Origin: a virus
Length of the DNA stretch: 29,673 nucleotides
Strand: one strand, 5' to 3'
Virus record (IMG/VR): IMGVR_UViG_3300034355_000273
Location: 1-29,673 of that record
Shown piece by piece: positions 15,978 to 29,673 of the stretch. Position numbers and translations under genes: made by a program. Numbering within the stretch: the first letter of the stretch is position 1; each line of letters opens with the position of its first letter. The notes under the pieces were generated by a model. It did no database searches and was not told the DNA's origin. It saw nothing but the letters and a program-made list of their open reading frames with translations.

Positions 15978-18900
15978 TTAAACGGGATCAACCGTAAATT
16001 TATTCCAGGAAATGTCATTATATAAAGAGTACGCATAATCTCCAACTGTCAATGGGAAGTTGTCTCCTACAATTAATTTATTTGTTCCAGTATAACTCTT
16101 GTATACCTCTGATGGGTTTACTCCATAATAACTGGTTTCAGCCAACACAAGAACTTTATTCCAGTTAAATGATCCAACATTCCAGAACTCCCAGTCCAGA
16201 CCTAAACCAGATAAAACCTTTACCCTAAACCATGGTCTTTCTGATATGTTTTGGACTTCTTGAAGGTTTGTTGATTGATAGTAAGAAATACTATTAAACA
16301 TTAGTGGGCCAGTCAATCTTGTTGCCCCTTCAAAAAATGAAAAGTCAAGACTGTCTGCAAAATTAATACCTAAGAATCCCCACTCTTGAAGAGTTAGCAC
16401 TGGCTCTTTTACAATCTTTCCGTTCCAGTAAAACCCAATGCCGTCTTGAACTAAACCAGTCTTTGCATCAATTGCGTAAATTTTTGCTCTTCTTCCACTT
16501 GGGTCATTTGCAACCATGTAAAACTTTATATATGATCCTTTGCTTTCTACTTCAAATATTTGAGTTGGTGCGTATGGAAAGTAGTCTCCATCAAATCTAA
16601 CAGCCATTTGCATTGCTATTACTTTAAAGTTATTTGCTCTGCTTGTATTCATAGGAATAGAAAGTCCACGATTAACAATAGGATCGTACTGCCCCTTTAC
16701 TTGAATACCACTTGTTTTTGTAAGATACAAATATGGAGATGATCCAGTATATATAGAAAATGGATTATTCTTTTTAAAGTTATAGTAAATTCCAGTTTTG
16801 GTATATGGGTATATAGGGGTTCCAAACCTAGTTCCTATTGGACTTGCGTCTGATTCATTTAGTGCCTGCGATGCGTAAGAAAGTTTTTTAATATTGACAT
16901 TGTGAGTTGATGAATTTTTAACATTTATATCAATATGCGTAACTATAGAGAGATCGTTAAAGTCTACACCAACTGGTGGATAAATTATCATATTGTCTAC
17001 AACTTCATACTTTGTAGTCATCCAGTCTGAGCCAGGAATTAAAATTCCATTTCTAGAAGGTCTTTCTGTTTTTGTAAAATAAAAAGAAGTTTGATTTGCC
17101 CCCAACTCTGTATACTGAAATGTAACATAAGTTTTTACTATTGCTCCATCTGTGTCATACCTATAGTCTTTTGCTATTTTGTTTTTAAGATCTTCATAAT
17201 CATTATAACCAGTAAATAAATAATTATCAAGTGACTCATAAGTTCTTTGAACTGGCAGACCATACTCATTAGCAAGTTCTGCATATGTCCAGTCAACTGG
17301 TTCAGTTTCTATTGCAATAGTTTTTGATGGTATTGGATAGTCTATATTAAACTGTATAAAATCAAGGTCAAAATACTGATCCCCCCGTTTATCTAAAACT
17401 GATTCAGCAAAATATGTTAGCGGAATTTGATCTTCCCAATATGCGTTTGCAGACACTGTTAAACTGTATGTATCAAAAATTTCATCTGGCAAAAGAGTAT
17501 AACTTGCCACATGATCTATAAGAAAATCTTCATCAGATATAAAAACACCACCTCCAGATATAGCGCCGTTAGCCGTATCTGTTGTTCCTCCATGTGGCGA
17601 CATTGATGTTGTGTCTACTCCACCGTCTATATTTATTAACTGATTGTTCTGATACACAGCAAAAAGATCTTCGTTCCAAACTGGAACACCTATCTCATTA
17701 AATAATGACCTAATTTTTTGAAAGTTGTATTTTGTACAAAAGCCAATCTTATAAATTTTACCCGTAAATGTAGAAGTTTCGTCTTTTTTACCGCCTACAT
17801 ATAGTCTTAAATCTGATAAAGATCCAAAGAAATCTGAGGCTGGATTTCCAAACCTAGAAACAAACGCTGGAATATTTATTCCAACATCAATTAATTCCCC
17901 AGGCTCTGCGACAGTTGGAGAGTATATTGTTTCTAAAATTCCGTCATAATTTATAGAGTATGATATTTGATTGTTAATTAGTTCTATTGCAAAATAACTG
18001 TTGGTGTTTTCTTTTTCAATTCTAAAAAGTGTTTGAACAGTAGGAGATGAATCTGGGATTCTCATACAACCATAAAAGGCAGATACTGGGCTTTTTAAAA
18101 AATCAAAGTTTTTAAAAAATAAATAACCAGAAACTAAATTCCAAGTAGGGTTAGGCCTAAAAGAAAAAAAGTTTTCTGTATCAGATGACTGAACTAACTT
18201 ACAGTCTGACAGTAAATCTTTTTCTGTTTTTGACGACAGGACTATTTCTGGAAGAGGTCCAGATGGCACAGATAAAGATTTATTAACAATTGATGTGTTA
18301 TCGTTAAATGCTTGTTGCCAGGATCCAACCTTTGGGTAAGAATAATTGGCAGTATAATCTGCAAAAGCATAATCAATAAATACGGAAGTTCCGCTATATG
18401 ATGTATTAATATTTTCTGGTATTTCTACACCTTGACCAAAAACAAATCTTCTTTTTGCCATAGCGGTTGCAACTACATATGGATAAATTCCAACACAATC
18501 AATTTCTATTGGATAAACTTCTTCGTGTGCATAAAACCCTATCCAGTCTTGGTCTTTTTCGTTTTCATTAAACATTTCTGGGAAAGAAATAGTTTCTCTG
18601 TCATAATCTAAAGATATAACTTCTTGCCCATTAATAACAAGAGAAACAATGTCTATTCCAACTCTCAAGTGAACGAGCATTGGTCTTGTCCACTCTCCAA
18701 CATAATATGTTCTATATTCTTTACCAACTTTAAGACCTATCGCTGGACCGTCAACATATATACCATCATCCGAAGCGATTGGTCCTATGATTTTTTTTGT
18801 TTCATTAGTATAAGAGTTTACCCTTAACCAAGTTTCAAGAGTGTATTCTTTAAATTTTCCAGACTCATTTAAAAGTCCTACTCCAGGAATTATAAGAGAT

Positions 18901-19694
18901 GGATTTGATCCATTTGGATATAATGCTGTTAGGCTGGATGCTCCATAAACCATTGGGATGCTTAAATTTTTTGCTTTAAGCATATTTTCAGAAGCCAAAT
19001 AGTAGGCATCAAGTTCTTGTAATCCATAGCATTTTGCAACAAGGCCTTTCTGTGGAGCAATTGAAATTGTTGAAGGAATATCTATTAAGGTTGTTCCTAG
19101 AGAAGTTGATGCAAACTCTTCTGACCATTGCCCAAAAGTAATTCCGTTTATTAAAAACACATCTTCTATTTCTGATCCCCCAATAAAATTAATCTTAAAC
19201 ACTAGTTGTATTTTTGAATCGTCTGGTGGTATATCAAATGTTTCTGATATAAAAACCCAACTATTGTTTATGATGGTGTCATAATTTTTTAGATGTGTAA
19301 CAATCTGTCCGCTGGTCGTATCTTCATATTGATACCCAATTTCAAAACCTGCAATATAGGCACTTTCAGAATAAAAGTATCCACCAACGGAAAATGTTCC
19401 CAAGTAATCGCTCATATCTCGCAGATCCATAATCTCATTGCTTATTGCAACAATCGATGCTAACTCGTTGCTAGTTGGAGTTGCTGTAATTTTGCCTACA
19501 TAACTATTGATGAATGGTTCGCCTATTGACTGTGGATAGTCTTGATGAGTACCGCCAGTAATCGTCCAGTTAGATAGATTTCTTTGTGGTTCAGAAATTA
19601 AAGAAATATAATCTGCATTATCGTCAAGAGCCCAAAGACCTGTTGGGTGTTCTGCAAACACCTTTTCTGCGTATAGGTTTGATGGAGTAGACAT
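15978..19694 (-). CDS. Giant structural protein with LamG-like regions (tail fibre / minor structural)
   Basis: A 1238-residue protein. The N-terminus (NLYAEKVFAEHPTGLWALDD) is of a type seen in phage proteins carrying concanavalin/LamG folds. Beta-rich LamG-like regions are suggested near residues 270-410 (YTLETWLRVNSY, then LVINGQEVISLDYD), 500-660 (FFGSLSDLRLYVGGKKDE) and 1035-1170 (AMQMAVRFDGDYFPYAPTQI). It is rich in Tyr, Asn and Ser and has no visible signal or membrane segment. Such proteins usually bind host surface glycans as fibres or decorations. Its position before the portal, away from the tail genes, is unusual. No Shine-Dalgarno is seen, and a TGGTAAAAT box lies 9 bases upstream, so the message is probably nearly leaderless. 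The assignment as a structural protein is firmer than the exact site in the virion. Confidence 0.75.
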   Translation of the reverse strand: MSTPSNLYAEKVFAEHPTGLWALDDNADYISLISEPQRNLSNWTITGGTHQDYPQSIGEPFINSYVGKITATPTSNELASIVAISNEIMDLRDMSDYLGTFSVGGYFYSESAYIAGFEIGYQYEDTTSGQIVTHLKNYDTIINNSWVFISETFDIPPDDSKIQLVFKINFIGGSEIEDVFLINGITFGQWSEEFASTSLGTTLIDIPSTISIAPQKGLVAKCYGLQELDAYYLASENMLKAKNLSIPMVYGASSLTALYPNGSNPSLIIPGVGLLNESGKFKEYTLETWLRVNSYTNETKKIIGPIASDDGIYVDGPAIGLKVGKEYRTYYVGEWTRPMLVHLRVGIDIVSLVINGQEVISLDYDRETISFPEMFNENEKDQDWIGFYAHEEVYPIEIDCVGIYPYVVATAMAKRRFVFGQGVEIPENINTSYSGTSVFIDYAFADYTANYSYPKVGSWQQAFNDNTSIVNKSLSVPSGPLPEIVLSSKTEKDLLSDCKLVQSSDTENFFSFRPNPTWNLVSGYLFFKNFDFLKSPVSAFYGCMRIPDSSPTVQTLFRIEKENTNSYFAIELINNQISYSINYDGILETIYSPTVAEPGELIDVGINIPAFVSRFGNPASDFFGSLSDLRLYVGGKKDETSTFTGKIYKIGFCTKYNFQKIRSLFNEIGVPVWNEDLFAVYQNNQLINIDGGVDTTSMSPHGGTTDTANGAISGGGVFISDEDFLIDHVASYTLLPDEIFDTYSLTVSANAYWEDQIPLTYFAESVLDKRGDQYFDLDFIQFNIDYPIPSKTIAIETEPVDWTYAELANEYGLPVQRTYESLDNYLFTGYNDYEDLKNKIAKDYRYDTDGAIVKTYVTFQYTELGANQTSFYFTKTERPSRNGILIPGSDWMTTKYEVVDNMIIYPPVGVDFNDLSIVTHIDINVKNSSTHNVNIKKLSYASQALNESDASPIGTRFGTPIYPYTKTGIYYNFKKNNPFSIYTGSSPYLYLTKTSGIQVKGQYDPIVNRGLSIPMNTSRANNFKVIAMQMAVRFDGDYFPYAPTQIFEVESKGSYIKFYMVANDPSGRRAKIYAIDAKTGLVQDGIGFYWNGKIVKEPVLTLQEWGFLGINFADSLDFSFFEGATRLTGPLMFNSISYYQSTNLQEVQNISERPWFRVKVLSGLGLDWEFWNVGSFNWNKVLVLAETSYYGVNPSEVYKSYTGTNKLIVGDNFPLTVGDYAYSLYNDISWNKFTVDPV

Positions 19695-19719: not shown

Positions 19720-21753
19720 CTATTTGTTTATCTTTATTTCACAATAGTCAGTTGTGCAATAAGACTCTCCTTGAGCCTCAAGATTTTCTGCTCCATCATA
19801 AATAGCAGAAAAATCAATGTGCTTTAACTTGCCAATATATGACTCGTATTGCTCTTCAGTAATCTGAGTATATGGCTGTTGTGGATATGTATGATTTCCC
19901 ATTGGCAGGAATGAGACTGCCTTTAATTGTCCCTCGTACATATGCAGTGCTGGCACTACATGCTTTGACTCTGTCTCCTTATCAAATGAAAGTGTTACAG
20001 AAACACCATTGTCAGACCAATACTTTTGAGCAGTTGCAGCAAGTGCAATCTTCTCAAACAGGGTTACATCCTTTTCAGATCTTGGATGGCCTGACTTGAT
20101 TGGGAAGTAAACTACTGACGTGTTTGCTGATACTACGTCATCTTCAATTGTATACCCCGCTGCTTTAAACAAATGCATCATCGGATCTGTATTCCCAAAA
20201 CGAACTGCACGAAGGAAGAACTCTCCTCCAGGTCCCCAGTGAACTCCAGGGGTTGCACCAGAAAGAATTGAAACTGATCCTGATGGCTTAACAGTTGTTA
20301 CACGAATTGATTCACGAACACATAGCCATTCTGAATACTGGTGGTCATAGTGACGGATTTTATTATATCCTTCGTCCATCCATTCACGAACGGTTGGTAA
20401 ACCCTTTTGATCTGCAAATGATGCAATACCTGTTAGAGATGTACCAATACGACGATTACGTTGCATGATACCGTTTGTTTGTGGCCAGTGTGTTGGAACA
20501 AGTGTTACAGTCTTTCCATAAAGGTATGCAAACTTCAGGGTACGCAGGAAGTCCTCCTTAGATTCATGACGATTTAAGTGCACTTCTACAAGTGTACATA
20601 GTTCGTATGATTCCAATGGCTGCTCCGCACATGGGTTAAATCCCATCACACGATAATCCTTACCGTCTGGCGCATCCTTTAGTCGTCCATAATTACGAGC
20701 AACATCAAGCCAGATAAAACCTGGTTCTCCGTTTTCAGTAATTAAATCTACATAGTCTTCATACTTTGTTCCTACTTCTGCTGAGATAGAATTATTAGAC
20801 ATCCATGCCCACCCTGGATTTTCTGGATCAAAAGAGTTTCGTTCTGGAAATGACTCAGAGTTCTTTAAATTCATAAACACATCGTCTCCAGCACTACCCA
20901 AAGCAAGGGTTGCTGATCTTCTAACATTTCCTGAAACCACACAGGTTCCAATTAAATTAACCAAGTCCACAATAGCACGAGAATCTAGGGTTTCTCCAGC
21001 CCTAGAGCCTATCACACGGTCTATTTGATTGTGCAACCTGATAAGGGGTGCAGGACCTGATGCAACCCCGCCAAAACCCTTTATAGGGGCTCCTAGGGGC
21101 CTAATTAAGTCATAGTTAAACTTCTGGATGTTCTGATTTGGCCTGAGATATGAATTAATTAAAACTCTGACTGACTCTACCCACCCTTCACGAGTGTCTG
21201 GAATCTCAAAGATTTGCTCTGGCTCTGTGGGGGCATAAATAGAGAAATTTTTATCCTGTCCCACTGTATCAAACCCTACGCCAATGCCAAGCATAAGGGC
21301 ATCCATAACCCAAGCAAACAATGCTCCTGGATCATTTTTGTCAAGGTCTTTCGTTGATACCATTGCACAGTTTTGTAATGCTGCTGAGTTTTTCTTTTCC
21401 ATGGTCATAGGGGTTCCAAATGCCCACATGCCACGACCTGGTGGTGTCCACTTTAAATTAAACATTCTGTCGTATGCTTCTTGTGCTGACTTCTGAGCCT
21501 TATAGTCATTCCATGGCAAACGGTTTTCTTTGGCATGGTTCTTTTGAACTGAATACATCCCCTCGATTACACGACGACAAACTTCGTGCCATCTTTCTTT
21601 AGTTCCATCTTCCTTCATCCTAGAATAAGTACGAATAAAAGTAATTTCTCCAAGTGAATTTTCTGCTGCATCTTTAAATCCAAATGGGCTTTCAACTTTT
21701 ATATACTTTTCTACAAAGTCTTCTGGAAGCCTAAAACTAAAAAAATCTGACAT
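19720..21753 (-). CDS. Adenosylcobalamin-dependent ribonucleoside-triphosphate reductase (class II)
   Basis: A 677-residue monomeric-type class II reductase that makes deoxynucleotides for phage replication using coenzyme B12. Catalytic residues are all present: Cys129 (LQNCAMVS), Cys375 and Glu377 (GFNPCAEQP), Cys386 (ELCTLVEVH), with the same 11-residue spacing as Cys408/Cys419 of the Lactobacillus enzyme. The C-terminal redox pair Cys666/Cys671 is in CTTDYC. I chose MSDFFSFRLP at 21753; an ORF extension to 21810 runs through the promoter and is unlikely. The AAGGAC site is 12 or so bases upstream, rather distant. It depends on host B12. The gene lies between oxygenases and virion genes and has its own promoter. 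Confidence 0.95.
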   Translation of the reverse strand: MSDFFSFRLPEDFVEKYIKVESPFGFKDAAENSLGEITFIRTYSRMKEDGTKERWHEVCRRVIEGMYSVQKNHAKENRLPWNDYKAQKSAQEAYDRMFNLKWTPPGRGMWAFGTPMTMEKKNSAALQNCAMVSTKDLDKNDPGALFAWVMDALMLGIGVGFDTVGQDKNFSIYAPTEPEQIFEIPDTREGWVESVRVLINSYLRPNQNIQKFNYDLIRPLGAPIKGFGGVASGPAPLIRLHNQIDRVIGSRAGETLDSRAIVDLVNLIGTCVVSGNVRRSATLALGSAGDDVFMNLKNSESFPERNSFDPENPGWAWMSNNSISAEVGTKYEDYVDLITENGEPGFIWLDVARNYGRLKDAPDGKDYRVMGFNPCAEQPLESYELCTLVEVHLNRHESKEDFLRTLKFAYLYGKTVTLVPTHWPQTNGIMQRNRRIGTSLTGIASFADQKGLPTVREWMDEGYNKIRHYDHQYSEWLCVRESIRVTTVKPSGSVSILSGATPGVHWGPGGEFFLRAVRFGNTDPMMHLFKAAGYTIEDDVVSANTSVVYFPIKSGHPRSEKDVTLFEKIALAATAQKYWSDNGVSVTLSFDKETESKHVVPALHMYEGQLKAVSFLPMGNHTYPQQPYTQITEEQYESYIGKLKHIDFSAIYDGAENLEAQGESYCTTDYCEIKINK

Positions 21754-21790
21754 AATGTGTATCGTCCTTTCAAAAACGGAATAAGTGTTA

Positions 21791-21799
21791 AGTATAGCA
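21791..21799 (-). promoter_or_regulatory. Extended -10 promoter of the reductase gene
   Basis: TGCTATACT on the minus strand lies about 37 bases before the start at 21753. It also excludes the longer reductase ORF, since that would begin about at the transcription start. A palindrome occupies the -35 side. Confidence 0.6.
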
Positions 21800-21801
21800 G
21801 T

Positions 21802-21820
21802 GTTTTGCAAAAAGCAAAAC
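21802..21820. promoter_or_regulatory. Palindrome GTTTTGC-N5-GCAAAAC at the reductase promoter
   Basis: A perfect 7-base inverted repeat with a 5-base A/T spacer sits at about -14 to -32 relative to the likely transcription start. This is a typical place for a repressor operator. It could also form a weak hairpin ending the upstream message, but no T-run follows it in the minus direction. Apart from this and the promoter, I see nothing in the 117-base gap between the oxygenase and the reductase. Confidence 0.5.
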
Positions 21821-21870: not shown

Positions 21871-22500
21871 TTAATGAATCCAGTGCTGTGGAACCATAAT
21901 CTTTTCGCCACTTTTTACTAGGTGTGCGGTGTGATGATATGGTGGTGATGGAGGGAAAACAATTATACTTCCAGCCTTGGGCTTTACATAAAAGTTATAG
22001 TTTCCTCTAGTTTTAGCATCATCAAAATCTGGTTCTGGGCTAGGCTGAGTTAGTACTCCTTCTGGAGAAGCAATTGTAAAAGAAATTTCTCCGCCTTCAT
22101 AATCGTCATTTAAATACATAACAAAAGAAACTTTAAGTCTTTGGTCTCCTTCTTGTTGATCAAAGTGTGCACCCATAAATGTTCCTGGCTGATACTTTTT
22201 AATTGGATACTGTGGAAATAGTTTTGGTTCATCTGTAATTCCTTGGGCTTTTGCATAGTCTCTTGCTACATCGTCAAATGCTTTTTGTAAGGTATTATAG
22301 ATATACTTATTTTTTTCATCAGCATCTGAAGTTAGAGCAATGGTTTTATCTGTTCCATAAACATACGCTTCTCCACTACACGCCATCCATTCACCCCAAG
22401 GATCTTTGTTGTCATTTTCAATTGCATCAACAAGTTTCTTTGGGTCTTCAATTACGTTTGTGTAATAGTAGACCTTTTCTTCAAGTATTTCTCTTTCCAT
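21871..22500 (-). CDS. 2-oxoglutarate/Fe(II) dioxygenase, prolyl-4-hydroxylase-like (copy 1)
   Basis: A 209-residue protein with the double-stranded beta-helix signature: HxD at His112/Asp114 (GAHFDQQ), LNDDYEGGEI after it, then KPKAGSIIVFPP, a distal His190 and Lys200 as the likely 2-oxoglutarate carboxylate ligand (GEK). Such enzymes hydroxylate proteins or small molecules using oxygen and 2-oxoglutarate. There is an extra loop of about 25 residues between the GGEI strand and the KPKAG motif (with TQPSPEPDFDD) that the other copies lack. The start has an AAGGAGA site. It is the last gene of the five-oxygenase operon, 11 bases after copy 2. The substrate is unknown. Confidence 0.88.
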   Translation of the reverse strand: MEREILEEKVYYYTNVIEDPKKLVDAIENDNKDPWGEWMACSGEAYVYGTDKTIALTSDADEKNKYIYNTLQKAFDDVARDYAKAQGITDEPKLFPQYPIKKYQPGTFMGAHFDQQEGDQRLKVSFVMYLNDDYEGGEISFTIASPEGVLTQPSPEPDFDDAKTRGNYNFYVKPKAGSIIVFPPSPPYHHTAHLVKSGEKIMVPQHWIH

Positions 22501-22511
22501 AGTATTTCTCC

Positions 22512-23174
22512 TTAGTACTTATTATTTTCATAAAAACCAATTGTCTTCATAAATCCTACAGTCACATAACGAATAGGACCTTCTCCAACATGTCTTACTC
22601 CATGCTCATATTCTTCGTTACCTGGAAAAATAAGCAAGGTTCCTGGCTTTGGCCTCAAATCTGAATTCTCTTTGTTATAAAAAAACAAAGTTCCATCTTT
22701 GTAGTCATCATTAATATATAGTATAGCAGCATATTTAATTGATGGATCGGTATTCTGGTCCGTATGTGCTTTTAGTTCAACGCCCTCTTGCATTCTTTGA
22801 AGAGTTCCAAACCCAGCGAGTTCTAGGGATGGGTCTGCTTTTTCAAGTAACTCTCCAAGCCTTCTTTGAAGAACTGTGCTTATAGGTCTCTTGGTAATAT
22901 CTAGATTTTTATCTTCCCATCCAAGAGTTTTTTCAAATTTACCTTCTGAAATTAAATTTTCAACATCGTCCCTTCCAAATTTTTCCATGCAAAACCTGGC
23001 AAGATTTTTAGTATACTCTATTGACCAGTCTGCGTTGTCAGTGGTATTAATTATGTTCCATAAAATTTCTAACTCTCCGTCTTTTAAAAAATCATAAATA
23101 AACAAAACCTGGTCATGGAAAACCTCAGTGTTATATCCAGCATCATCGAACTCTTTTTTTAAAAAAACATTCAT
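22512..23174 (-). CDS. 2-oxoglutarate/Fe(II) dioxygenase, prolyl-4-hydroxylase-like (copy 2)
   Basis: A 220-residue protein. Iron ligands His137/Asp139 (KAHTDQN) and His191 (YEHGVRHV), with Arg202 as the likely 2-oxoglutarate ligand. Between them are YINDDYKDGTLFF and RPKPGTLLIFPG. The N-terminal 110 residues are helical and specific to this copy. Its ATG overlaps the stop of copy 3 as ATGA. The active site looks complete. The low resemblance to its neighbours outside the motifs argues for an old duplication or separate acquisition. Confidence 0.88.
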   Translation of the reverse strand: MNVFLKKEFDDAGYNTEVFHDQVLFIYDFLKDGELEILWNIINTTDNADWSIEYTKNLARFCMEKFGRDDVENLISEGKFEKTLGWEDKNLDITKRPISTVLQRRLGELLEKADPSLELAGFGTLQRMQEGVELKAHTDQNTDPSIKYAAILYINDDYKDGTLFFYNKENSDLRPKPGTLLIFPGNEEYEHGVRHVGEGPIRYVTVGFMKTIGFYENNKY

Positions 23175-23920
23175 TTTAAATCATCTGCTTTATATTTATT
23201 TCCATTAGCATCAAGTTTCCAACCCTGTTTTAAGAGTTCTTGCCACTCGGCTCTTTCAATTTCTTGATGCGCTCTAGTTTCTTTCATTTCTGCTGCCCAT
23301 GCATCTCTTACTTCTTGTGGGTATGCATCTTCTTCTCGATCATCCCAAAAAGAACCTATGGTGTATCTAACTCCACTAGTGATAAGGGTTACTTCGTGCA
23401 TGTTGTTAAATCCCCCGTCAAATGCAGCAAGCATTCCAACTTTGGGCTGTATGCTTATGTCTTGATCTGGGAACTGCAACATTCCTCCTTCAAAATTATC
23501 ATTTAGATATAAGAATGCAGCATATCTACTCCTTGTAAAGGCACCAGAGTGTCCGTGCTCATCGGTATTGTCGGAATGTTTTCTTGCGTATGCTCCTGGC
23601 TCCCACTTTTGAGTATGATATCCAATTTGAGAAATTATCTTTGGATCAAGGTCATGAACACTTGCTACTGCTTCAATTATCCCCTGCTTCATGTCTGAAA
23701 AAATAGTAGTAGGAAGACCTTCTGCAATAACATGCTCATCATCATCTTGTGGTAATACAGAAGAATAGGATTCGTAGAATGATATTGGCATCCATGTGAT
23801 TGTTCCAACCTCGACATGTTTATCTAAAACTTTTACAAGTTTTTCAGCAGTATCTGCATCAATGAAGTTTTCATAAACAACTATATCTTTAGTTATTCTG
23901 TTTTTGTTTTCTAGATTCAT
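23171..23920 (-). CDS. 2-oxoglutarate/Fe(II) dioxygenase, prolyl-4-hydroxylase-like (copy 3)
   Basis: A 249-residue protein. His115/Asp117 (RKHSDNTD), LYLNDNFEGGMLQF, then QPKVGMLAAFDGG, distal His175 (NNMHEVTLI) and Arg185 (SGVRYTIGSF) complete the site. The C-terminal 55 residues form a charged helical tail (EMKETRAHQEIERAEWQEL) not seen in the other copies, perhaps for partner binding. Coupled by ATGA overlaps at both ends. The RYAAFLYLN strand and SGVRYTIGSFW ending resemble the prolyl 4-hydroxylases of bacteria and cyanophages. Confidence 0.88.
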   Translation of the reverse strand: MNLENKNRITKDIVVYENFIDADTAEKLVKVLDKHVEVGTITWMPISFYESYSSVLPQDDDEHVIAEGLPTTIFSDMKQGIIEAVASVHDLDPKIISQIGYHTQKWEPGAYARKHSDNTDEHGHSGAFTRSRYAAFLYLNDNFEGGMLQFPDQDISIQPKVGMLAAFDGGFNNMHEVTLITSGVRYTIGSFWDDREEDAYPQEVRDAWAAEMKETRAHQEIERAEWQELLKQGWKLDANGNKYKADDLK

Positions 23921-24786
23921 GATATTCTTTTCTCCCTTTCAGCACTATGTTTATTTGGATGAGCATTTCTAAACTCTTCCATAATCTTTTCTTGCATTTT
24001 GTTCCAGACTTCTTTTCCAAACTTTTCTTCTTGTTCAAACCATGCGGATTCTCCTGGTTCGTATTTCATCCAATACATTCTGGAGATATACTTCTTAAAA
24101 CCTTGCGCTGGCATAACTCCGTGTAGGTATATCTTTCCCTCTTTAGTTAAAATTTGTGGATGCCCTGAAGGAAATACCAAAACATCTCCAGCCTGTGGTT
24201 TATACATGTAGGCTTCTCCATCAACAATAAAATCAATTTCACCGCCAGAATAATTATCATTAAAGTATGTCAGGGCCGTTATGACATATTTATGCCCTGG
24301 ACTAGTGATTGGCTCACGGATATAGTCAGAATGATACGTCATTGCAACTGGATCTGTGATGTCTGTTCTGTATCTTGCTATTGATGGACCATTAATCACC
24401 CATTCTTTTATGTCTTGGCCCTCGTGTGTTTTTACAATTTTTTGATCATCTATCTCAATATCAAACCTATTTGCGTAGTCTTTTGTTGCTATATAGAAAT
24501 TTTCATAAAGTTCCAATATTGCATTTTTATGTTCTTCTTGTTTTAAATTTGTTGTTTTTATTACTCTTATCATGCCTATTAATAGTTGGAAAGGGTCATT
24601 TTTAAACAACGGATTGAGATATTCTCCAAAATTAGACCATTTTGTCCATGGCGAAAACAAACCGTCTTCGCTTTCTTCTTCAAGTAATTTTGTAGTTTTT
24701 GCAATATCTTTAAATAAATTCTTATACACAATTATTTTAGGATACAACTCAACAGAATCCAAACTTTTTGAAGACATTGCTATCAT
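23917..24786 (-). CDS. 2-oxoglutarate/Fe(II) dioxygenase, prolyl-4-hydroxylase-like (copy 4)
   Basis: A 289-residue protein, the largest copy. I chose the ATG at 24786 because it overlaps the previous stop (ATGA) and has AGGAGAT upstream; an upstream ATG at 24822 would lie deeper in copy 5. His152/Asp154 (TYHSDYIRE), YFNDNYSGGEIDF, KPQAGDVLVFPSG, His222 (YLHGVMPAQG) and Lys232 form the site. About 12 extra residues lie between the VFPSG strand and the distal His. The N-terminal 140 residues are extended and the C-terminus is rich in Glu/Lys. Confidence 0.87.
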   Translation of the reverse strand: MIAMSSKSLDSVELYPKIIVYKNLFKDIAKTTKLLEEESEDGLFSPWTKWSNFGEYLNPLFKNDPFQLLIGMIRVIKTTNLKQEEHKNAILELYENFYIATKDYANRFDIEIDDQKIVKTHEGQDIKEWVINGPSIARYRTDITDPVAMTYHSDYIREPITSPGHKYVITALTYFNDNYSGGEIDFIVDGEAYMYKPQAGDVLVFPSGHPQILTKEGKIYLHGVMPAQGFKKYISRMYWMKYEPGESAWFEQEEKFGKEVWNKMQEKIMEEFRNAHPNKHSAEREKRIS

Positions 24787-25457
24787 GGCTTTCGATCTCC
24801 TGTATGCTCTGTAATTTCCCAAAAGAAAGGACAGGTAAATCTTAAACCACTTTTAATTTCTGTTACCCCGTGGATATAGTTCTTGTCACCTGGGAAAAAG
24901 TATGCAGCGCCTTTTTTAGGTTTAAACTGCACTTCTTGCAGTGGAAAGTATAGTTCTCCACCTTCGTAGTCATCGTTTAAATAAAACAAACTTGAAAGAT
25001 CATAGTTTGGAAAATCATTTGGTAGGCCAGCATCTGGGCCTTCGTGCAACTCTTTGTCTGCATGCGGTTTTTGAAATTGTCCTGGAAGCCATTTTACAAT
25101 TGTTGTTCCAGTAGGGATAACCTTTACTTTATAAAAATCTTCTACTATAGGCTTTAACCTTTCAAAAAGTCCTGCGATTACTGGAGCAATTGATGGATCA
25201 TTTTTGTTAAGTGTTGGACTGGTTGCAACTCTGTCTTTCCAGTATTCTGAATCATAAACAACAGTTCCATTTTCGTTTACATGGCTTTCTGTTACATCCC
25301 AAATAGTTAAAGACTTTGCAGCCTTTTCTAAAAACTCAATCTCTTCTTGTGTCATAAAGTTTTCTAACTCTACGATCATATCTTTACTATCGCCAAACCA
25401 GCCAGACGGGGTTATCGATGGCTTTCTAACTACAACAGTGGCTTTTTCTTTGTCCAT
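24783..25457 (-). CDS. 2-oxoglutarate/Fe(II) dioxygenase, prolyl-4-hydroxylase-like (copy 5)
   Basis: A 224-residue protein and the first gene of the five-oxygenase operon. His132/Asp134 (QKPHADKELHEG), YLNDDYEGGELYF, FKPKKGAAYFFPG, His196 (YIHGVTEI) and Arg206 (SGLRFTCPFFW) give a complete site. This copy looks closest to canonical prolyl 4-hydroxylase-like proteins. No ribosome site precedes the ATG; instead TGATATAAT ends 6 bases before it, so the operon message is probably leaderless. Confidence 0.9.
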   Translation of the reverse strand: MDKEKATVVVRKPSITPSGWFGDSKDMIVELENFMTQEEIEFLEKAAKSLTIWDVTESHVNENGTVVYDSEYWKDRVATSPTLNKNDPSIAPVIAGLFERLKPIVEDFYKVKVIPTGTTIVKWLPGQFQKPHADKELHEGPDAGLPNDFPNYDLSSLFYLNDDYEGGELYFPLQEVQFKPKKGAAYFFPGDKNYIHGVTEIKSGLRFTCPFFWEITEHTGDRKP

Positions 25458-25463
25458 AATAAG

Positions 25464-25472
25464 ATTATATCA
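25464..25472 (-). promoter_or_regulatory. Extended -10 promoter of the oxygenase operon, leaderless start
   Basis: TGATATAAT on the minus strand, then CTTATT, then the ATG at 25457. Transcription 7 bases after the hexamer would begin with the start codon. It drives copies 5, 4, 3, 2 and 1, all of which are coupled or nearly so. Confidence 0.68.
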
Positions 25473-25483
25473 TAGGGTTTATC

Positions 25484-25939
25484 CTACAATGTCCTTTCTA
25501 TTTCTAGTTGTTTTAAAAACCTGTCTGCATTAAATCTCCAGTTGTCTTTTGCAAATGAGGTAACAATTTTAATACACATCTCTTCGTAGTCTTCTTTGCT
25601 TAACTTATGTTTAACAGAGTGCAAGGCTTCAACCGTATCAATATAATTTTGCCTAACAAACGAAGGATCTCCAGCATGATTTCTTTTTAAAACTTTTGTA
25701 GTGACTATTCCTGATGGCTGATATAGGGAAACTGTAAGATAATCTTTTGCAAACCCAGCATCTTCATACATTGAGTAACCTTTAAATGCCTCGTCTATGT
25801 TGTCAAATGATATTATAGACCGTACTGGAGACTCCCCATCTCTAGCAACTGTTATCATGTAATGGCCAACCTTTCCTTCTTTGGCATTTTTTATATATTC
25901 GCTTACTATATCTTCATGTGTTGGATTTAGTTCACTCAT
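25484..25939 (-). CDS. Unknown protein between oxygenase modules
   Basis: A 151-residue protein starting MSELNPTHEDIVSEYI. The N-terminal half looks alpha/beta (YMITVARDG, RSIISFDNIDEAFKGY). The C-terminal half is helical (YIDTVEALHSVKHKLSKEDY, FNADRFLKQLEIE). No membrane segment, signal or known motif is seen. It overlaps the previous gene as ATGA, so it is made with the DUF6065-like protein before it. I do not recognise a family. Confidence 0.75.
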   Translation of the reverse strand: MSELNPTHEDIVSEYIKNAKEGKVGHYMITVARDGESPVRSIISFDNIDEAFKGYSMYEDAGFAKDYLTVSLYQPSGIVTTKVLKRNHAGDPSFVRQNYIDTVEALHSVKHKLSKEDYEEMCIKIVTSFAKDNWRFNADRFLKQLEIERTL

Positions 25940-26646
25940 AACTCACCAGAACTATCTTTTACAATGAGTTTTAAAGTTTTTGTTTCATGAGAGCCCAGAG
26001 ATTCTTGTTTTTCATTTACAGCGTTTCTATACCAGTCTGTCCATTCTCCCGAAGAATTAAGAACTTGTGCAGCCTCTCCATAAGACCTGTTTGCTTGCTC
26101 TCTTTTTTTGTCATTATCTTGATACTTTATAATATTAATTTCAGTATTGTTTAAGCCTGTTAAGGATATTGGTATTATTGTTGCTACTGGAGTTCCAGCC
26201 TTAATTGTTACCCTTTTATTTGCAAACCTTGCTTTAATTGCTAACGGCAAGGGGTTGTCATAAAAAGAAGTACTTATTAAGGATGACATCGTTTCAAACT
26301 CATCATTAAAATAATTTACTGGATTTATAGTGAGGATGCTGAGTTCTTCTATAGTTCTAAATATTAACCCTGTGTCTAGGCTTACTGATGACTGACCTCT
26401 TCCAGAATATGATCTTTCTGGATTAAATATTGTTACATGATCTTGAGTTTGATCGTTTATCCCGTCCCAAATAAACTCAATATCCTCTTTACAAGAAAGA
26501 CTGTAGCCAACGACATTTGCTTGCGTTACTGGGAAACATCTATAAGCATGGTTTTCTGATGTAGCATCCATCCAATCTCTTTTTATTGACATTGGATTTA
26601 TTTCAAAAATACACCCTGGCATTTTTTCAACTATTATGTTATACAC
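25936..26646 (-). CDS. DUF6065-like protein (copy A), partner of an oxygenase
   Basis: A 236-residue protein beginning at a GTG (TAGTG overlap with the oxygenase stop). Features that recall DUF6065: FEINPMSIKRDWMDAT, AYRCFPVTQANVVGYSL, EFIWDG, LIFRTIEELSILTINPVNYF and KAGTPVATIIPISL. The fold appears beta-rich; no catalytic residues are known to me. Such proteins of unknown function are found near oxygenase genes in environmental phages, from memory. Copy B at 27339-28106 has an equivalent position after a related oxygenase. The family name is a recollection and needs a profile search. Confidence 0.6.
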   Translation of the reverse strand: MYNIIVEKMPGCIFEINPMSIKRDWMDATSENHAYRCFPVTQANVVGYSLSCKEDIEFIWDGINDQTQDHVTIFNPERSYSGRGQSSVSLDTGLIFRTIEELSILTINPVNYFNDEFETMSSLISTSFYDNPLPLAIKARFANKRVTIKAGTPVATIIPISLTGLNNTEINIIKYQDNDKKREQANRSYGEAAQVLNSSGEWTDWYRNAVNEKQESLGSHETKTLKLIVKDSSGEL

Positions 26647-27329
26647 TATTCATTATCCCATTTAGGATCATACATGTCTGGCGTATGATACTTTTTACTA
26701 TAGTCAAGCATGGTAACAATAGAGTATTTAGTTCCAGAATGAACTGGCATAGCCTGATGAGGATACATAAAGTTAGATGGGAAGATGTAAAGATCTCCAG
26801 CCTTTGGCTTAATGTTTAAACCCTGTAGTCTAAAAAATAACTCTCCACCCTCATAGTCATCATTTACATAAGCGACCAACGAAACAGTACAGTTGTAGGA
26901 GTATCCATGATCATGATGCTCTTTAAAGTGTTGGCCTGGACCATATTTAATAAAATTAAAGGCTTCCCAATATTTAAGTGGCATAATGTTGTAGTCTCGT
27001 CTGTAGTCCTCTACTGCTGCAGATTGTGCATCATAGATGTCCTGCCAAAGAGACTGCAACTTTAAAGACTCTTCACTTTTATCTTGTTCAATGTCTGTTT
27101 TTTTAAATTTAAAATCTACACAGTCTCTGTAGTCTGGCATAAGTTGTTGATAACCAACATATGCTGGCATCCAGTGATATCTTTTACCTTCTGTAGACAA
27201 CTCTCCGTACCCAGCAACAGAACCTAAAGTATTTTCAAGCCTATTGACTACATCAAACTCTTTTTTAATAACCCCTCTATAACAGGTTATTCCATTTCCA
27301 AGACTTTCTTTATCTGTCCATGTTTGCAT
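26646..27329 (-). CDS. 2-oxoglutarate/Fe(II) dioxygenase, NCTVS subgroup (copy 6)
   Basis: A 227-residue protein. His138/Asp140 (KEHHDHG), then YNCTVSLVAYVNDDYEGGEL, KPKAGDLYIFPSN, distal His191 (YPHQAMPV) and Lys201. It is clearly the paralogue of the gene at 28106-28819: both have EAFNF-KY, the DHG-YNCTVS stretch, PSN and a GTKY near the end, which the other five copies lack. AGGAGAT gives a good ribosome site. It is coupled to a DUF6065-like gene downstream. Confidence 0.9.
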   Translation of the reverse strand: MQTWTDKESLGNGITCYRGVIKKEFDVVNRLENTLGSVAGYGELSTEGKRYHWMPAYVGYQQLMPDYRDCVDFKFKKTDIEQDKSEESLKLQSLWQDIYDAQSAAVEDYRRDYNIMPLKYWEAFNFIKYGPGQHFKEHHDHGYSYNCTVSLVAYVNDDYEGGELFFRLQGLNIKPKAGDLYIFPSNFMYPHQAMPVHSGTKYSIVTMLDYSKKYHTPDMYDPKWDNE

Positions 27330-27338
27330 TTGTATCTC

Positions 27339-28106
27339 CTATTTATACTCTCTGCGTGACCAAACTTTTTTAATATATACGCCCCCGTCAGGTTGACGAT
27401 AGAACTTTGCGTTATCTACCATTTTACCATATATAGAAGATTGATCTGAAATCTCTATATCATGATCCCAATTTTCTCTTTTAAATGGAAGGACTTGCAA
27501 ATATGGGGTTCCTGCTGGAATAGTGCCTTCCCAACCATCTGCAATAAAAAATGGAAAACTTCCAAGAAGATGAACTTTGTCAGAGTCAACAATTCCAGTT
27601 GTATTTAAAAATGGAAGATCAAACCTGTTCATTGGAGTCATAAATAATGCACTATATCCTTCTGGAAGTTCTAGGCCCCACGGAGAACTCCAGGCAAAAT
27701 GGTGTTGGTAGTATCCTTTTGGATGTTCGAATTGTGGCATTGGAGGTCTTTGAGTACAAAAGTCTTTATACTTAGGGTCATTAATTGTTACATTAATTAT
27801 TCCCTGAGAATTTTTAGCAAATGTTAGATCACAAGGAGTTTTAAATACATATCCTGTCGCAAACGCATCCATAATTGCAGGACACGCTTTCCATGTTGGG
27901 ATCTTTCCATAGTCATCTGTTGTTCCTTCTTTGGGAAATGGACAAACCTCTTTTGTTGCTTTATAGTATTCTCCGTTTGGCATTTTTGCAAATCTATCTG
28001 CATCCTTATACCAGTCTGGTATTTCTTTTTGTGTAGGAACAGGAACAGAGATATCCTCTTTGTTTATCCAAGGCCTGAATGCTGTAAACTTTGCAACTAA
28101 AGACAC
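27339..28106 (-). CDS. DUF6065-like protein (copy B), partner of an oxygenase
   Basis: A 255-residue protein starting at a GTG that overlaps the previous stop (TAGTG). Features include PTQKEIPDWYKDADRF, TWKACPAIMDAFATGYVFKT, HFAWSSPWGLELPEGYSALF and GWEGTIPAGTPYLQVLPF. Proteins with the same CPA-x-DA-x-x-x-GY pattern occur in marine phages near hydroxylase genes, as far as I recall. The GTP-x-x-x-x-x-P ending element and the operon position match copy A, suggesting distant relatives, though their sequences have diverged strongly. Function unknown. Confidence 0.6.
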   Translation of the reverse strand: MSLVAKFTAFRPWINKEDISVPVPTQKEIPDWYKDADRFAKMPNGEYYKATKEVCPFPKEGTTDDYGKIPTWKACPAIMDAFATGYVFKTPCDLTFAKNSQGIINVTINDPKYKDFCTQRPPMPQFEHPKGYYQHHFAWSSPWGLELPEGYSALFMTPMNRFDLPFLNTTGIVDSDKVHLLGSFPFFIADGWEGTIPAGTPYLQVLPFKRENWDHDIEISDQSSIYGKMVDNAKFYRQPDGGVYIKKVWSRREYK

Positions 28107-28819
28107 TACTTGTGTCCCAGTTCATTAATGTCTGTCATTACGACAACACAATATTTAGTTCCTTCTTTCATTGGCAAAGATGCATGCTCATAAATATAGT
28201 TAGATGGACAAAGAACAATGTCTCCTATTTTTGGAGTATGAGTGTAGTTATCCATTCTCGGAAACCTAATCTCTCCCCCCTCGTAATCTTCATTTATATA
28301 GACAACGGCAGACACTGTACAGTTATACATTGGTCCATGGTCTGCATGAATATTGAAGTGTGTTCCTTCTCCTTCATATTTTACAAAGTTAAAGGCTTCA
28401 TAGTATATGACATTTATTCCCCAATACCGTGCATAATCATCAACGCAAAACTTTAACTTTTGATATATTTCTTCATGTAAGTCTAAAAGTTCAGCATTGT
28501 GTTCGTCTCTTGGACCTAAGTTTTCTTGCTTAAATCTAAAGTCTACAGCATCTCTAGCCTTTTTAATTGGAACATCAGAGTTGGTTACTTTTGCCTCTGA
28601 CCATTTGTATTTACCATTACCGCCTAAATTAGATTCAAGAATTTTAATATATCTTTCAGAATCTTCTTTTGAAAATACATTTCTGTATAAATTAATTCCT
28701 AGGGCTGGATTTTCAACTAAGATGTTGTTGCCGATATTCCTTGATGAATACCTATTTAGTGATGTTTCTGATCTATCTTTAGTAAACCATGGAGTTTCAT
28801 TTTCATCATAAATTGTCAT
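28106..28819 (-). CDS. 2-oxoglutarate/Fe(II) dioxygenase, NCTVS subgroup (copy 7)
   Basis: A 237-residue protein. His158/Asp160 (NIHADHG), YNCTVSAVVYINEDYEGGEI, TPKIGDIVLCPSN, distal His212 (YEHASLPM) and Lys222 complete the iron and 2-oxoglutarate sites. It begins the operon that runs through copies B, 6, A and the 151-residue unknown protein. It has an AAAGGAAAAAGT ribosome site and an extended -10 promoter. The N-terminal 45 residues are polar and specific to this copy. Confidence 0.9.
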   Translation of the reverse strand: MTIYDENETPWFTKDRSETSLNRYSSRNIGNNILVENPALGINLYRNVFSKEDSERYIKILESNLGGNGKYKWSEAKVTNSDVPIKKARDAVDFRFKQENLGPRDEHNAELLDLHEEIYQKLKFCVDDYARYWGINVIYYEAFNFVKYEGEGTHFNIHADHGPMYNCTVSAVVYINEDYEGGEIRFPRMDNYTHTPKIGDIVLCPSNYIYEHASLPMKEGTKYCVVVMTDINELGHK

Positions 28820-28871: not shown

Positions 28872-29318
28872 TTATGCTAAAGAACTCTCTCTCGTTTCAG
28901 TATTATACTTAATGCTTTTGCCAAAAGGAAGCCCTTCATGCTTAATAAATTTAACTTCTCCTTCAAAAGCAGCAGCAACAAGTTCTGCAAAATCTGTATC
29001 ATTTGTTGTAACTATCATAGCAATCAAAACATTATCACACAAAAATCCGTAAACTTTATGAGATTCCCAAAACTCTACTGTATCTGGTAGCGCTTTATAG
29101 TGTATGCCATCTAACTCATGACCTCCAGAAAAAGAAGATCCGTCCCAGAAAGCACCTATCAACGCTGTGTTTTTGTATGCAGTTATTTCCATAGGAACTA
29201 TAGGCAATTCGCTATCCCATGCTTCTTTTAGGGATGACAACCTAACCATTGAATAATAATTAAAATCAAAAAATATATCCCAGGTTTGATCATCATTTTT
29301 TACTATTGCACTATACAT
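28872..29318 (-). CDS. Unknown protein between the repeat protein and the oxygenases
   Basis: A 148-residue protein starting MYSAIVKNDDQTWDIFFDF with an AAAGGAGAT ribosome site. It looks alpha/beta, with GAFWDGSSFSGGHELDG, then DNVLIAMIVTTNDTDFAELV, and a basic segment near the C-terminus. I see no signal peptide, membrane segment or known motif. It has its own promoter and a promoter follows it, so it may be a single-gene unit. Confidence 0.72.
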   Translation of the reverse strand: MYSAIVKNDDQTWDIFFDFNYYSMVRLSSLKEAWDSELPIVPMEITAYKNTALIGAFWDGSSFSGGHELDGIHYKALPDTVEFWESHKVYGFLCDNVLIAMIVTTNDTDFAELVAAAFEGEVKFIKHEGLPFGKSIKYNTETRESSLA

Positions 29319-29353: not shown

Positions 29354-29673
29354 TTAGACACAGAGTCCATTACAGACGCAGTCGCATCCTCCAAAGCGTG
29401 GTGGGAAAAATGGTGGGAAGAATGGGAAGAATGGGAAGAACGGTGGGAAGAATGGGAAGAATGGGAAGAACGGGAAGAATGGTGGGAAGAATGGGAAGAA
29501 TGGGAAGAACGGTGGGAAGAATGGGAAGAATGGGAAGAACGGGAAGAATGGTGGGAAGAATGGGAAGAATGGGAAGAACGGTGGGAAGAATGGGAAGAAT
29601 GGGAAGAACGGGAAGAATGGTGGGAAGAATGGGAAGAATGGGAAGAACGGTGGGAAGAATGGGAAGAATGGGA
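29354..29673 (-). CDS. Phe/Pro repeat protein, C-terminal part (start beyond right edge)
   Basis: The minus-strand frame is open from the right edge to TAA at 29354. It reads as Phe-Phe-Pro units with periodic Pro-Pro steps, then ends PPRFGGCDCVCNGLCV, with four cysteines in ten residues. I prefer this strand because all other genes lie on it, a promoter follows directly after the stop, and the unique C-terminal end looks like a natural protein ending. The opposite strand gives a Trp-Glu-Glu repeat with no ribosome site. A repetitive surface fibre or an extended coat-like protein is possible; its neighbours are proline-hydroxylase-like enzymes, so its prolines could be substrates. The family is not recognised. 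Confidence 0.65.
   Translation of the reverse strand, partial: PFFPFFPPFFPFFPFFPPFFPFFPFFPFFPPFFPFFPFFPPFFPFFPFFPFFPPFFPFFPFFPPFFPFFPFFPFFPPFFPFFPFFPPFFPPRFGGCDCVCNGLCV
29411..29673. repeat. 69-bp tandem repeat, 3.8 copies, purine-rich on plus strand
   Basis: Exact 69-base periodicity: CGGGAAGAATGGTGGG recurs at 29471, 29540 and 29609. Each unit holds smaller 9-base TGGGAAGAA steps. The unit is 23 codons, so the frame is preserved. The array continues past the right edge. The plus strand carries regularly spaced GGG runs that could form G-quadruplexes. Confidence 0.95.

Follow-up and report, generated by a model that had tools for sequence, protein, structure and literature searches.

In plant hydroxyproline-rich glycoproteins (extensins, arabinogalactan proteins), a proline-repeat chain is modified by prolyl 4-hydroxylase (P4H) and then glycosylated, and in the chlorella virus PBCV-1 a P4H gene is found together with genes for proline-rich repeat proteins; this viral enzyme and its peptide substrates were reportedly described by Eriksson in 1999. 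The PBCV-1 P4H (Eriksson 1999) is cited as a viral enzyme in the accessible part of PMC9301287, and bacteria and viruses are said, in an excerpt of PMC3368898, to be without the prolyl hydroxylases required for collagen. T4-like cyanophages are known to carry several 2-oxoglutarate/Fe(II) (2OG-Fe(II)) oxygenase genes (available sections of PMC3037559), S-SCSM1 being reported with 24 of them over several Pfam families; according to the same portion of that report (PMC9602691), the functions of viral 2OG-Fe(II) oxygenases had not been specifically investigated before. Cultured freshwater actinophages carry two collagen-like proteins beside a tail fibre gene, and no oxygenase is named in the accessible text of PMC10202952. 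The present analysis concerns a 29.7-kb record of an uncultured virus (IMG/VR record IMGVR_UViG_3300034355_000273; the whole stretch of 29,673 nucleotides is called the window), in which the first-pass annotation had noticed seven dioxygenase genes at positions 21871-28819; all seven lie on the minus strand.

The locus consists of a gene with FN3-like and repeat parts and, behind it on the same strand, a conserved block in which five to eight distinct dioxygenases of P4H type are usual (D1 to D7 in the window), along with two proteins of dUTPase-type predicted fold (K1 and K2). The favored reading, to which a probability of about 0.62 is given, is that this cassette is a maturation system for a virion protein of the tail or adhesin type, in which the dioxygenases hydroxylate a P(P)FF repeat, most likely on its prolines. 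It had been stated at first that no substrate was visible; a strong candidate is in fact the P(P)[F/Y]F-repeat protein encoded directly upstream, whose gene is cut by the window edge. Positions 29398-29673 of the window fall inside the repeat, and since several related contigs likewise start or stop there, the repeat may be a point at which assembly of these phages tends to fail, so that the gene is hidden. The full gene was found in a near-identical contig, G001 (99.9% over 20.8 kb), at G001:31224-32096. Its product of 290 amino acids gives FN3 and PKD matches below cut-off and a weak match to the tail-protein family phrog_3995 (E 2.7e-4), and contains 76 residues that are purely proline and phenylalanine (32 Pro, 44 Phe), after which a Cys-rich tip follows. 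Judged from its sequence, the protein is FN3-like and of the tail type.

The repeat itself was followed through 144 distinct DNAs with 2775 units, which comprise PFF (1326), PPFF (1269), PPYF (93) and PYF (87). Tyrosine occupies the first aromatic position in 180 units and the second in none, and PFF is written in 14 different codings; on both grounds the repeat appears to be constrained at the protein level. A chance reading frame was considered and rejected, as the PFF frame continues the N-terminal open reading frame (ORF) in 32 distinct proteins. Among 161 distinct stop-terminated repeat proteins, sorted into C-terminal classes that can overlap, at least four cysteines follow the repeat in 86, an RFKxxI motif (which we take to be suggestive of an S74 chaperone) is found in 6, a Hint-like ending in 3, and no such class applies to 67. 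The ending looks Hint- or intein-type in place of the Cys-rich tip in loci L058, L061, L163, L192 and L408, with L058 and L061 judged Hint-like by eye though they are among the 67 unclassed proteins.

The association between repeat and block was counted from both sides. From the block, a K2 search of IMG/VR, of which the best 80 of 391 confirmed relatives were kept as loci, placed the repeat upstream in 68 of the 80; in the remaining 12, the upstream sequence is shorter than 1.5 kb or D7 is missing. Starting from the repeat, a scan with a degenerate pattern, covering at least 120 stretches, yielded 116 new loci; 113 of them have at least 5 units in frame, and in 75 of the 113 the downstream sequence extends over at least 3 kb. 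A same-strand D or K gene lies within 3 kb in 70/75, the nearest being D7 in 65, and 65 of the 70 positive loci have at least five D/K genes. When restricted to the 59 loci that share no sampled 100-mer with the first set, the count is 55 positive, 51 with at least five D/K genes. The five exceptions are L105, L119, L134, L146 and L163, the last having D7 at 3.8 kb. Control scans for (PT)n and for collagen-type (GPQ)n repeats, each giving 119 new loci from at least 120 stretches, found a D/K gene near the repeat in 5/55 and 2/56, and at least five such genes in 0/119 and 0/119. L129, which bears the block and was in the sample beforehand, came up in the collagen scan as well and was left out of its count.

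Within the 80 loci, the gene order, where not cut, is D7-K2-D6-K1-(U1)-D5-(D4)-D3-D2-D1, some loci having an additional D1-like copy and others no D4. Divergent phages reached via the repeat have an altered order (D7-D6-K1-K2-D5 in L129, D6-K2-D7-K1-D5 in L131), in which D7, D6, K1, K2 and D5 recur and D1-D4 are variable; up to 11 dioxygenase genes were counted per locus, many loci being cut. In 20 chosen records of the 80, 6-9 PF13640 matches and one PF19541 match were found in 20/20, so the accumulation is not a matter of chance. The high number in itself is less extraordinary than the first-pass annotation supposed. Its view that one or a few such genes are the usual number in phages does not hold for four cyanophages, S-SCSM1 (13 PF13640 matches), S-SCSM2R (11), ACG-2014f (8) and S-H9-1 (7), and S-SCSM1 has the 24 reported 2OG-Fe(II) genes (PMC9602691, part seen); Melnitz-3 has 3 PF13640 matches and the halovirus HRTV-14 has 0. 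What is new is the conserved enzyme-repeat block, a high dioxygenase count in phages being already known.

Several individual loci deserve mention. In L110, K1 and D4 are both split in two ORFs, possibly by a frameshift or a sequencing error; this was a single case, noticed in passing. In 2/196 loci the block contains or adjoins a radical SAM gene whose C-terminal cysteines look SPASM-like by eye; it is placed between K2 and D6 in L084 and beyond D7 in L151, and a similar gene stands beside the second-module dioxygenase (see below) of L391; enzymes of the radical SAM/SPASM type often modify peptides. Two phage-like contigs are binned as Chitinophagaceae (L223, with the repeat gene and D7, D6, K1, K2, D5 and D4) and as Maricaulis (L231, with a G-X-Y-repeat gene, a K2-like gene and a dioxygenase). 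Bacterial genome contigs with K2 were also considered as a guide to the host and gave none, as they proved to be phage contigs in bins of metagenome-assembled genomes (MAGs) and distant K2-like genes.

The enzymes themselves largely bear out the first description. All seven proteins match PF13640 (2OG-FeII_Oxy_3) with 33.3-58.2 bits, over the curated cut-off of 27 bits, and HxD...H...[K/R] is present in 7/7, with Arg as the 2-oxoglutarate ligand in D2, D3 and D5 and Lys in D1, D4, D6 and D7. Pairwise identity is 17-32% (D6/D7 42%). Genes next to each other in the block either share 1-40 bases or have at most 26 bases between them, a spacing that fits the proposed translational coupling. U1, K1 and K2, three more ORFs inside the block, had not been part of that description. 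A lost metal site had been named as what would speak against seven active enzymes, and the aligned orthologs have it intact: with rows restricted to those of at least 250 bits and 0.85-1.35 of the length, the four ligands are present in 70/71 distinct proteins for D1, 67/67 for D2, 79/79 for D3, 61/61 for D4, 101/104 for D5, 108/108 for D6 and 106/107 for D7, every miss being an alignment gap. The choice of Lys or Arg is constant inside each group, with no switch in 597 distinct orthologs.

The nearest solved relatives of the D profile are the prolyl 4-hydroxylases 5iax, 5hv0 and 3itq, presumably from Bacillus (E 6e-12 to 7e-12, in matches that span the catalytic half); next come prolyl 3-hydroxylase 1 (8k0e) and then more P4H and PKHD enzymes. 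The P4H kinship of the D proteins is thus one at the sequence level. In a 90-row quick tree, which included 18 rows from 30 loci of five other phages (the rest had no profile hit over 130 residues or repeated a row), D3, D4, D6 and D7 form single clades (D7 with support 93, not starred), two changes are needed for each of D1, D2 and D5, D6 is sister to D7 (97, starred), and the cyanophage rows fall between the groups. D1-D7 are old, separate lineages; a recent tandem amplification was rejected, because every group forms a clade of its own, or nearly does, and cyanophage sequences lie between the groups. Relatives of D6 and D7 were found by tblastn in 209 and 73 GenBank phage records, nearly all cyanophages and all below 60% identity. 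The PHROGs names "ferrochelatase" and "DNA endonuclease" were rejected because phrog_3531, 2297 and 274, whose labels they are, match the dioxygenase domain, and an NCBIfam profile search gave no score close to a cut-off. Conserved block, kept ligands, old lineages and P4H kin together give good support to the first-pass proposal of a dedicated multi-enzyme modification pathway.

The two constant companions of the dioxygenases are remote homologs of each other (hhalign probability 94.1 by profile comparison), and both match phrog_7084. Of all cassette genes K2 is the best conserved (61% invariant over 46 distinct sequences); it has no Pfam match at E 0.1, and just two chance-level hits were obtained when its sequence was compared to the PDB. 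Its predicted structure, built from 51 diverse sequences, reached a pLDDT of 92.7, as compared to 44.6 for an earlier model from 13 sequences, 12 of them close. With this model, the 50 VIA matches listed are dUTPases (best Z 10.5, 119 residues, 2.5 A), though the absence of other families from that list carries no weight; Foldseek gave a best PDB E-value no better than 1.1e-3, and the best predicted viral structures were unnamed phage proteins (E 8e-19). According to the model K2 has a dUTPase-like fold; by eye, its GxVDxD and GTPxxQ resemble what we take to be dUTPase motifs 3 and 4, and the canonical RSS, presumably of motif 2, is replaced. A tblastn search of 50,697 phage records gave no relatives of K1; those of K2 in GenBank phages were restricted to 49 haloarchaeal virus records. 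The name DUF6065 was not found in the open-licence PMC literature. K1 is a member of DUF6065 (PF19541)/phrog_7084; what differs from that family as catalogued is the link to a dioxygenase block and the dUTPase-like fold assigned to K2.

Table 1. Features of the cassette and its flanks in the window, in order of position.
Feature	Position	Strand	Remarks
Class II ribonucleotide reductase	19720..21810	-	directly downstream of D1
D1, PF13640 dioxygenase (2OG ligand Lys)	21871-22500	-	over PF13640 cut-off
D2, PF13640 dioxygenase (Arg)	22512-23174	-	over PF13640 cut-off
D3, PF13640 dioxygenase (Arg)	23171-23920	-	over PF13640 cut-off
D4, PF13640 dioxygenase (Lys)	23917-24822	-	33.3 bits; TTG start codon uncertain
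D5, PF13640 dioxygenase (Arg)	24783-25457	-	over PF13640 cut-off
U1, 151 amino acids, no family	25484-25939	-	optional; in 30/80 cassette loci
K1, PF19541 (DUF6065)	25936-26646	-	92 bits vs cut-off 26.6
D6, PF13640 dioxygenase (Lys)	26646-27329	-	58.2 bits; sister lineage of D7
K2, phrog_7084 match, predicted dUTPase-like fold	27339-28106	-	between D6 and D7
D7, PF13640 dioxygenase (Lys)	28106-28819	-	40.5 bits
148-amino-acid protein, no family	28872..29318	-	between repeat gene and D7
P(P)FF-repeat gene, 3' part	29354..29671	-	cut by contig end; Cys-rich tail

A second module of a similar kind came to light through the (PT)n control. Three of its five hits (L375, L391 and L397) belong to the same phage group, judged by eye from the neighbouring genes they share, and in these loci, as in G001, a (PT)n, (PTPA)n or (PTPVA)n protein is followed by a dioxygenase and then by epimerase- or glycosyltransferase-like genes. 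The (PTPVA)n protein of G001 has 680 amino acids, with 110 Pro and 44 PTPVA units; two small genes separate its gene from that of a dioxygenase scoring 65 bits on PF13640. Next in line are a phrog_2954 match, an O-FucT-like protein that stays below cut-off and a nucleotide-sugar epimerase. With the PFF cassette and this module, proline-repeat proteins and P4H-type enzymes therefore meet twice in one phage. In L408, from another phage, the genes are those of a PT protein, a dioxygenase, a K2-like protein and again a dioxygenase.

In the mechanism proposed, the repeat, being a proline-rich chain, would form an extended polyproline-II-like rod, to which the dioxygenases would bind after synthesis and which they would hydroxylate with O2 and 2-oxoglutarate, likeliest on prolines. 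Individual enzymes might be specialised by context (a proline before another proline, a proline before an aromatic residue) or carry out successive steps. K1 and K2 would be their partners, non-catalytic or put to a new use, and would serve to hold the substrate or to present it. Modification would make the rod stiffer and more soluble, and the rod could have a role in host binding. In the second module, glycosylation would come after hydroxylation, the order known from plant hydroxyproline-rich glycoproteins; this is what the (PTPVA)n module suggests. It is the prolyl-hydroxylase matches of the D profile together with the repeat association that make rod hydroxylation the best reading; the residues modified, their order, the roles of K1 and K2 and the presence of the repeat protein in the virion are inferences.

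Several points weigh against this reading. Gene association is not chemistry, PF13640 enzymes also act on small molecules and on other proteins, and the neighbourhood could reflect a shared tail-gene island. The Tet-like dioxygenase 5cg8 is also matched by the D profile (E 9.4e-5), and in the 40 kb of S-SCSM1 that were viewed the 2OG genes are scattered among replication genes. We know of no prolyl hydroxylation in which K1- or K2-like proteins have a role, though the two are constant companions here. K2-like genes occur in Gammaproteobacteria MAGs with D genes absent in the fetched flanks (at most 8 kb), and HRTV-14 has a K2 relative but 0 PF13640 matches; K2 is therefore not restricted to the block. 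(In the MAG loci L219-L222, L225 and L227 the K2-like gene is single or a tandem pair.) Among the exceptions and the repeat loci whose short flanks show no D/K gene, 32 in all, 30 were searched over the whole record, L173 and L203 being left out; K2 was found somewhere in 19/30. The 11 records without K2 have no PF13640 match in 9 cases and one each in 2. Eight of them are shorter than 20 kb, and fragmentary records cannot prove that dioxygenase genes are absent; the other three are G025 (54 kb), with one match, and G032 (38 kb) and G047 (27 kb), with none. Finally, the positives probably form one phage group, in which the linkage may be inherited and not repeatedly selected; since the repeat phages may share one ancestor, the counts show linkage and not repeated independent gain.

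Three other explanations were weighed, together with a bolder version of the favored one. In the latter, a kind of "repeat-writing" that is unlikely as it stands, position- and residue-specific dioxygenases would act on Pro and perhaps Phe, with K1 and K2 giving template guidance, and produce a patterned, multiply hydroxylated virion polymer; the basis for a possible Phe target is that the first aromatic alone tolerates Tyr. If it were true, the P(P)FF rod, often Cys-tipped, would be unlike any known post-translationally modified protein. Doubtful, too, is the idea that the targets are virion proteins of another sort, mainly other fibres (collagen-like, (PTPVA)n or FN3 parts) or their glycans, the PFF gene being a co-inherited neighbouring adhesin. 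Such fibres exist in the same phage, since G001 encodes the 44-unit (PTPVA)n protein and two proteins slightly over the PF01391 collagen cut-off (27.8 and 28.8 vs 27.2 bits), and G-X-Y runs are found in tail-region proteins of G008 and G017. The cassette, however, tracks the PFF repeat (70/75) and not collagen repeats (2/56), the collagen-like genes of G001 are at about 16-17 kb, far from the cassette at 32-39 kb, and the (PTPVA)n gene has another dioxygenase beside it.

A function in nucleotide or DNA modification, in which the dioxygenases, the dUTPase-fold proteins and the adjacent reductase would make or use modified deoxynucleotides, is improbable. The dUTPase-like fold of K2 would agree with it, as would a class II reductase directly downstream, another one close to where HRTV-14 has its K2 relative, and a weak Tet_JBP (PF12851) match of D5, the one such match among the seven proteins (15.7 bits, below the cut-off of 34.9). 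Against it, phages commonly have reductases, K2 is without the canonical RSS motif at the expected place (by eye), prolyl hydroxylases head the solved structures that the D profile matches, and the near-constant repeat gene would be left without an explanation. Very improbable is a role in auxiliary metabolism, by which the enzymes would lower 2-oxoglutarate or alter the nitrogen or energy metabolism of the host. A proposal of this kind was made for cyanophage homologs in PMC3037559 and repeated in PMC9602691 (both as far as their available text goes), yet bulk turnover of 2-oxoglutarate needs no seven specialised lineages, no fixed Lys or Arg and no single repeat partner.

Hydroxylation of the repeat would place the cassette, by its sequences, as a variant of viral prolyl-hydroxylase-type modification of proline-rich proteins. 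With PBCV-1 it shares the combination of a viral P4H and proline-rich repeat proteins; that is a eukaryotic virus with one enzyme and other repeats, in contrast to a phage block of ~7 enzymes and two proteins of predicted dUTPase-like fold. The bacterial P4Hs (5iax, 5hv0, 3itq) are the top sequence-profile matches among solved structures, but each is a single enzyme, as opposed to seven paralogous lineages in one operon, and we know of no PFF-type repeat partner for them. As for the plant hydroxyproline-rich glycoproteins, no homology is claimed to what is here a phage tail-type protein, and no plant counterpart of the aromatic PFF repeat is known to us. The T4-like cyanophages resemble the present phages in their many PF13640 genes, which are dispersed over genomes of 190-240 kb with small groups occurring. 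In S-SCSM1 a triple of 2OG, protein O-fucosyltransferase and 2OG genes recalls the second module, and a short tail fibre with 10 RQPR repeats (L271:84-1349) is followed two genes on by three 2OG genes, one small gene separating the last two. The cyanophages differ in that tblastn over the GenBank phage records gave no K1 relative and placed K2 relatives solely in haloarchaeal viruses, and in that the 18 rows of five phages fall outside the D3, D4, D6 and D7 clades. No description of the block or of a PFF-repeat phage protein was found in the open-licence PMC literature, most subscription papers being outside this search.

As to the virus itself, the nearest GenBank relatives of its portal are those of Streptomyces phages (46-47% identity over 99%, among the best 15 of 271 records), and it is therefore taken to be an actinophage-type virus. 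The class II ribonucleotide reductase is probably a neighbour and not a part of the cassette. Beyond it lie a family-less protein of 1238 amino acids and then the structural genes (portal, protease, head protein, tail tube). The 1238-amino-acid protein (15978-19694, AT-rich, between the portal region and the reductase) has a weak lectin-like hit as its sole family match, and relatives of similar size occupy the equivalent position in G003 and G017. A gene resembling that of the 148-amino-acid protein was found in 78/196 loci searched.

Dioxygenases of the 2OG/Fe(II) type are frequent yet unexplained in aquatic phages, and with one obvious repeat-protein partner of a conserved block their role becomes directly testable. 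This phage group may contradict the statement on viral prolyl hydroxylases in the accessible part of PMC3368898. If the favored reading is true, it would also provide a first functional context for DUF6065-type proteins, and phages, here a widespread group of uncultured aquatic ones, would make heavily hydroxylated virion proteins by a chemistry that is usually tied to collagen and plant cell walls.

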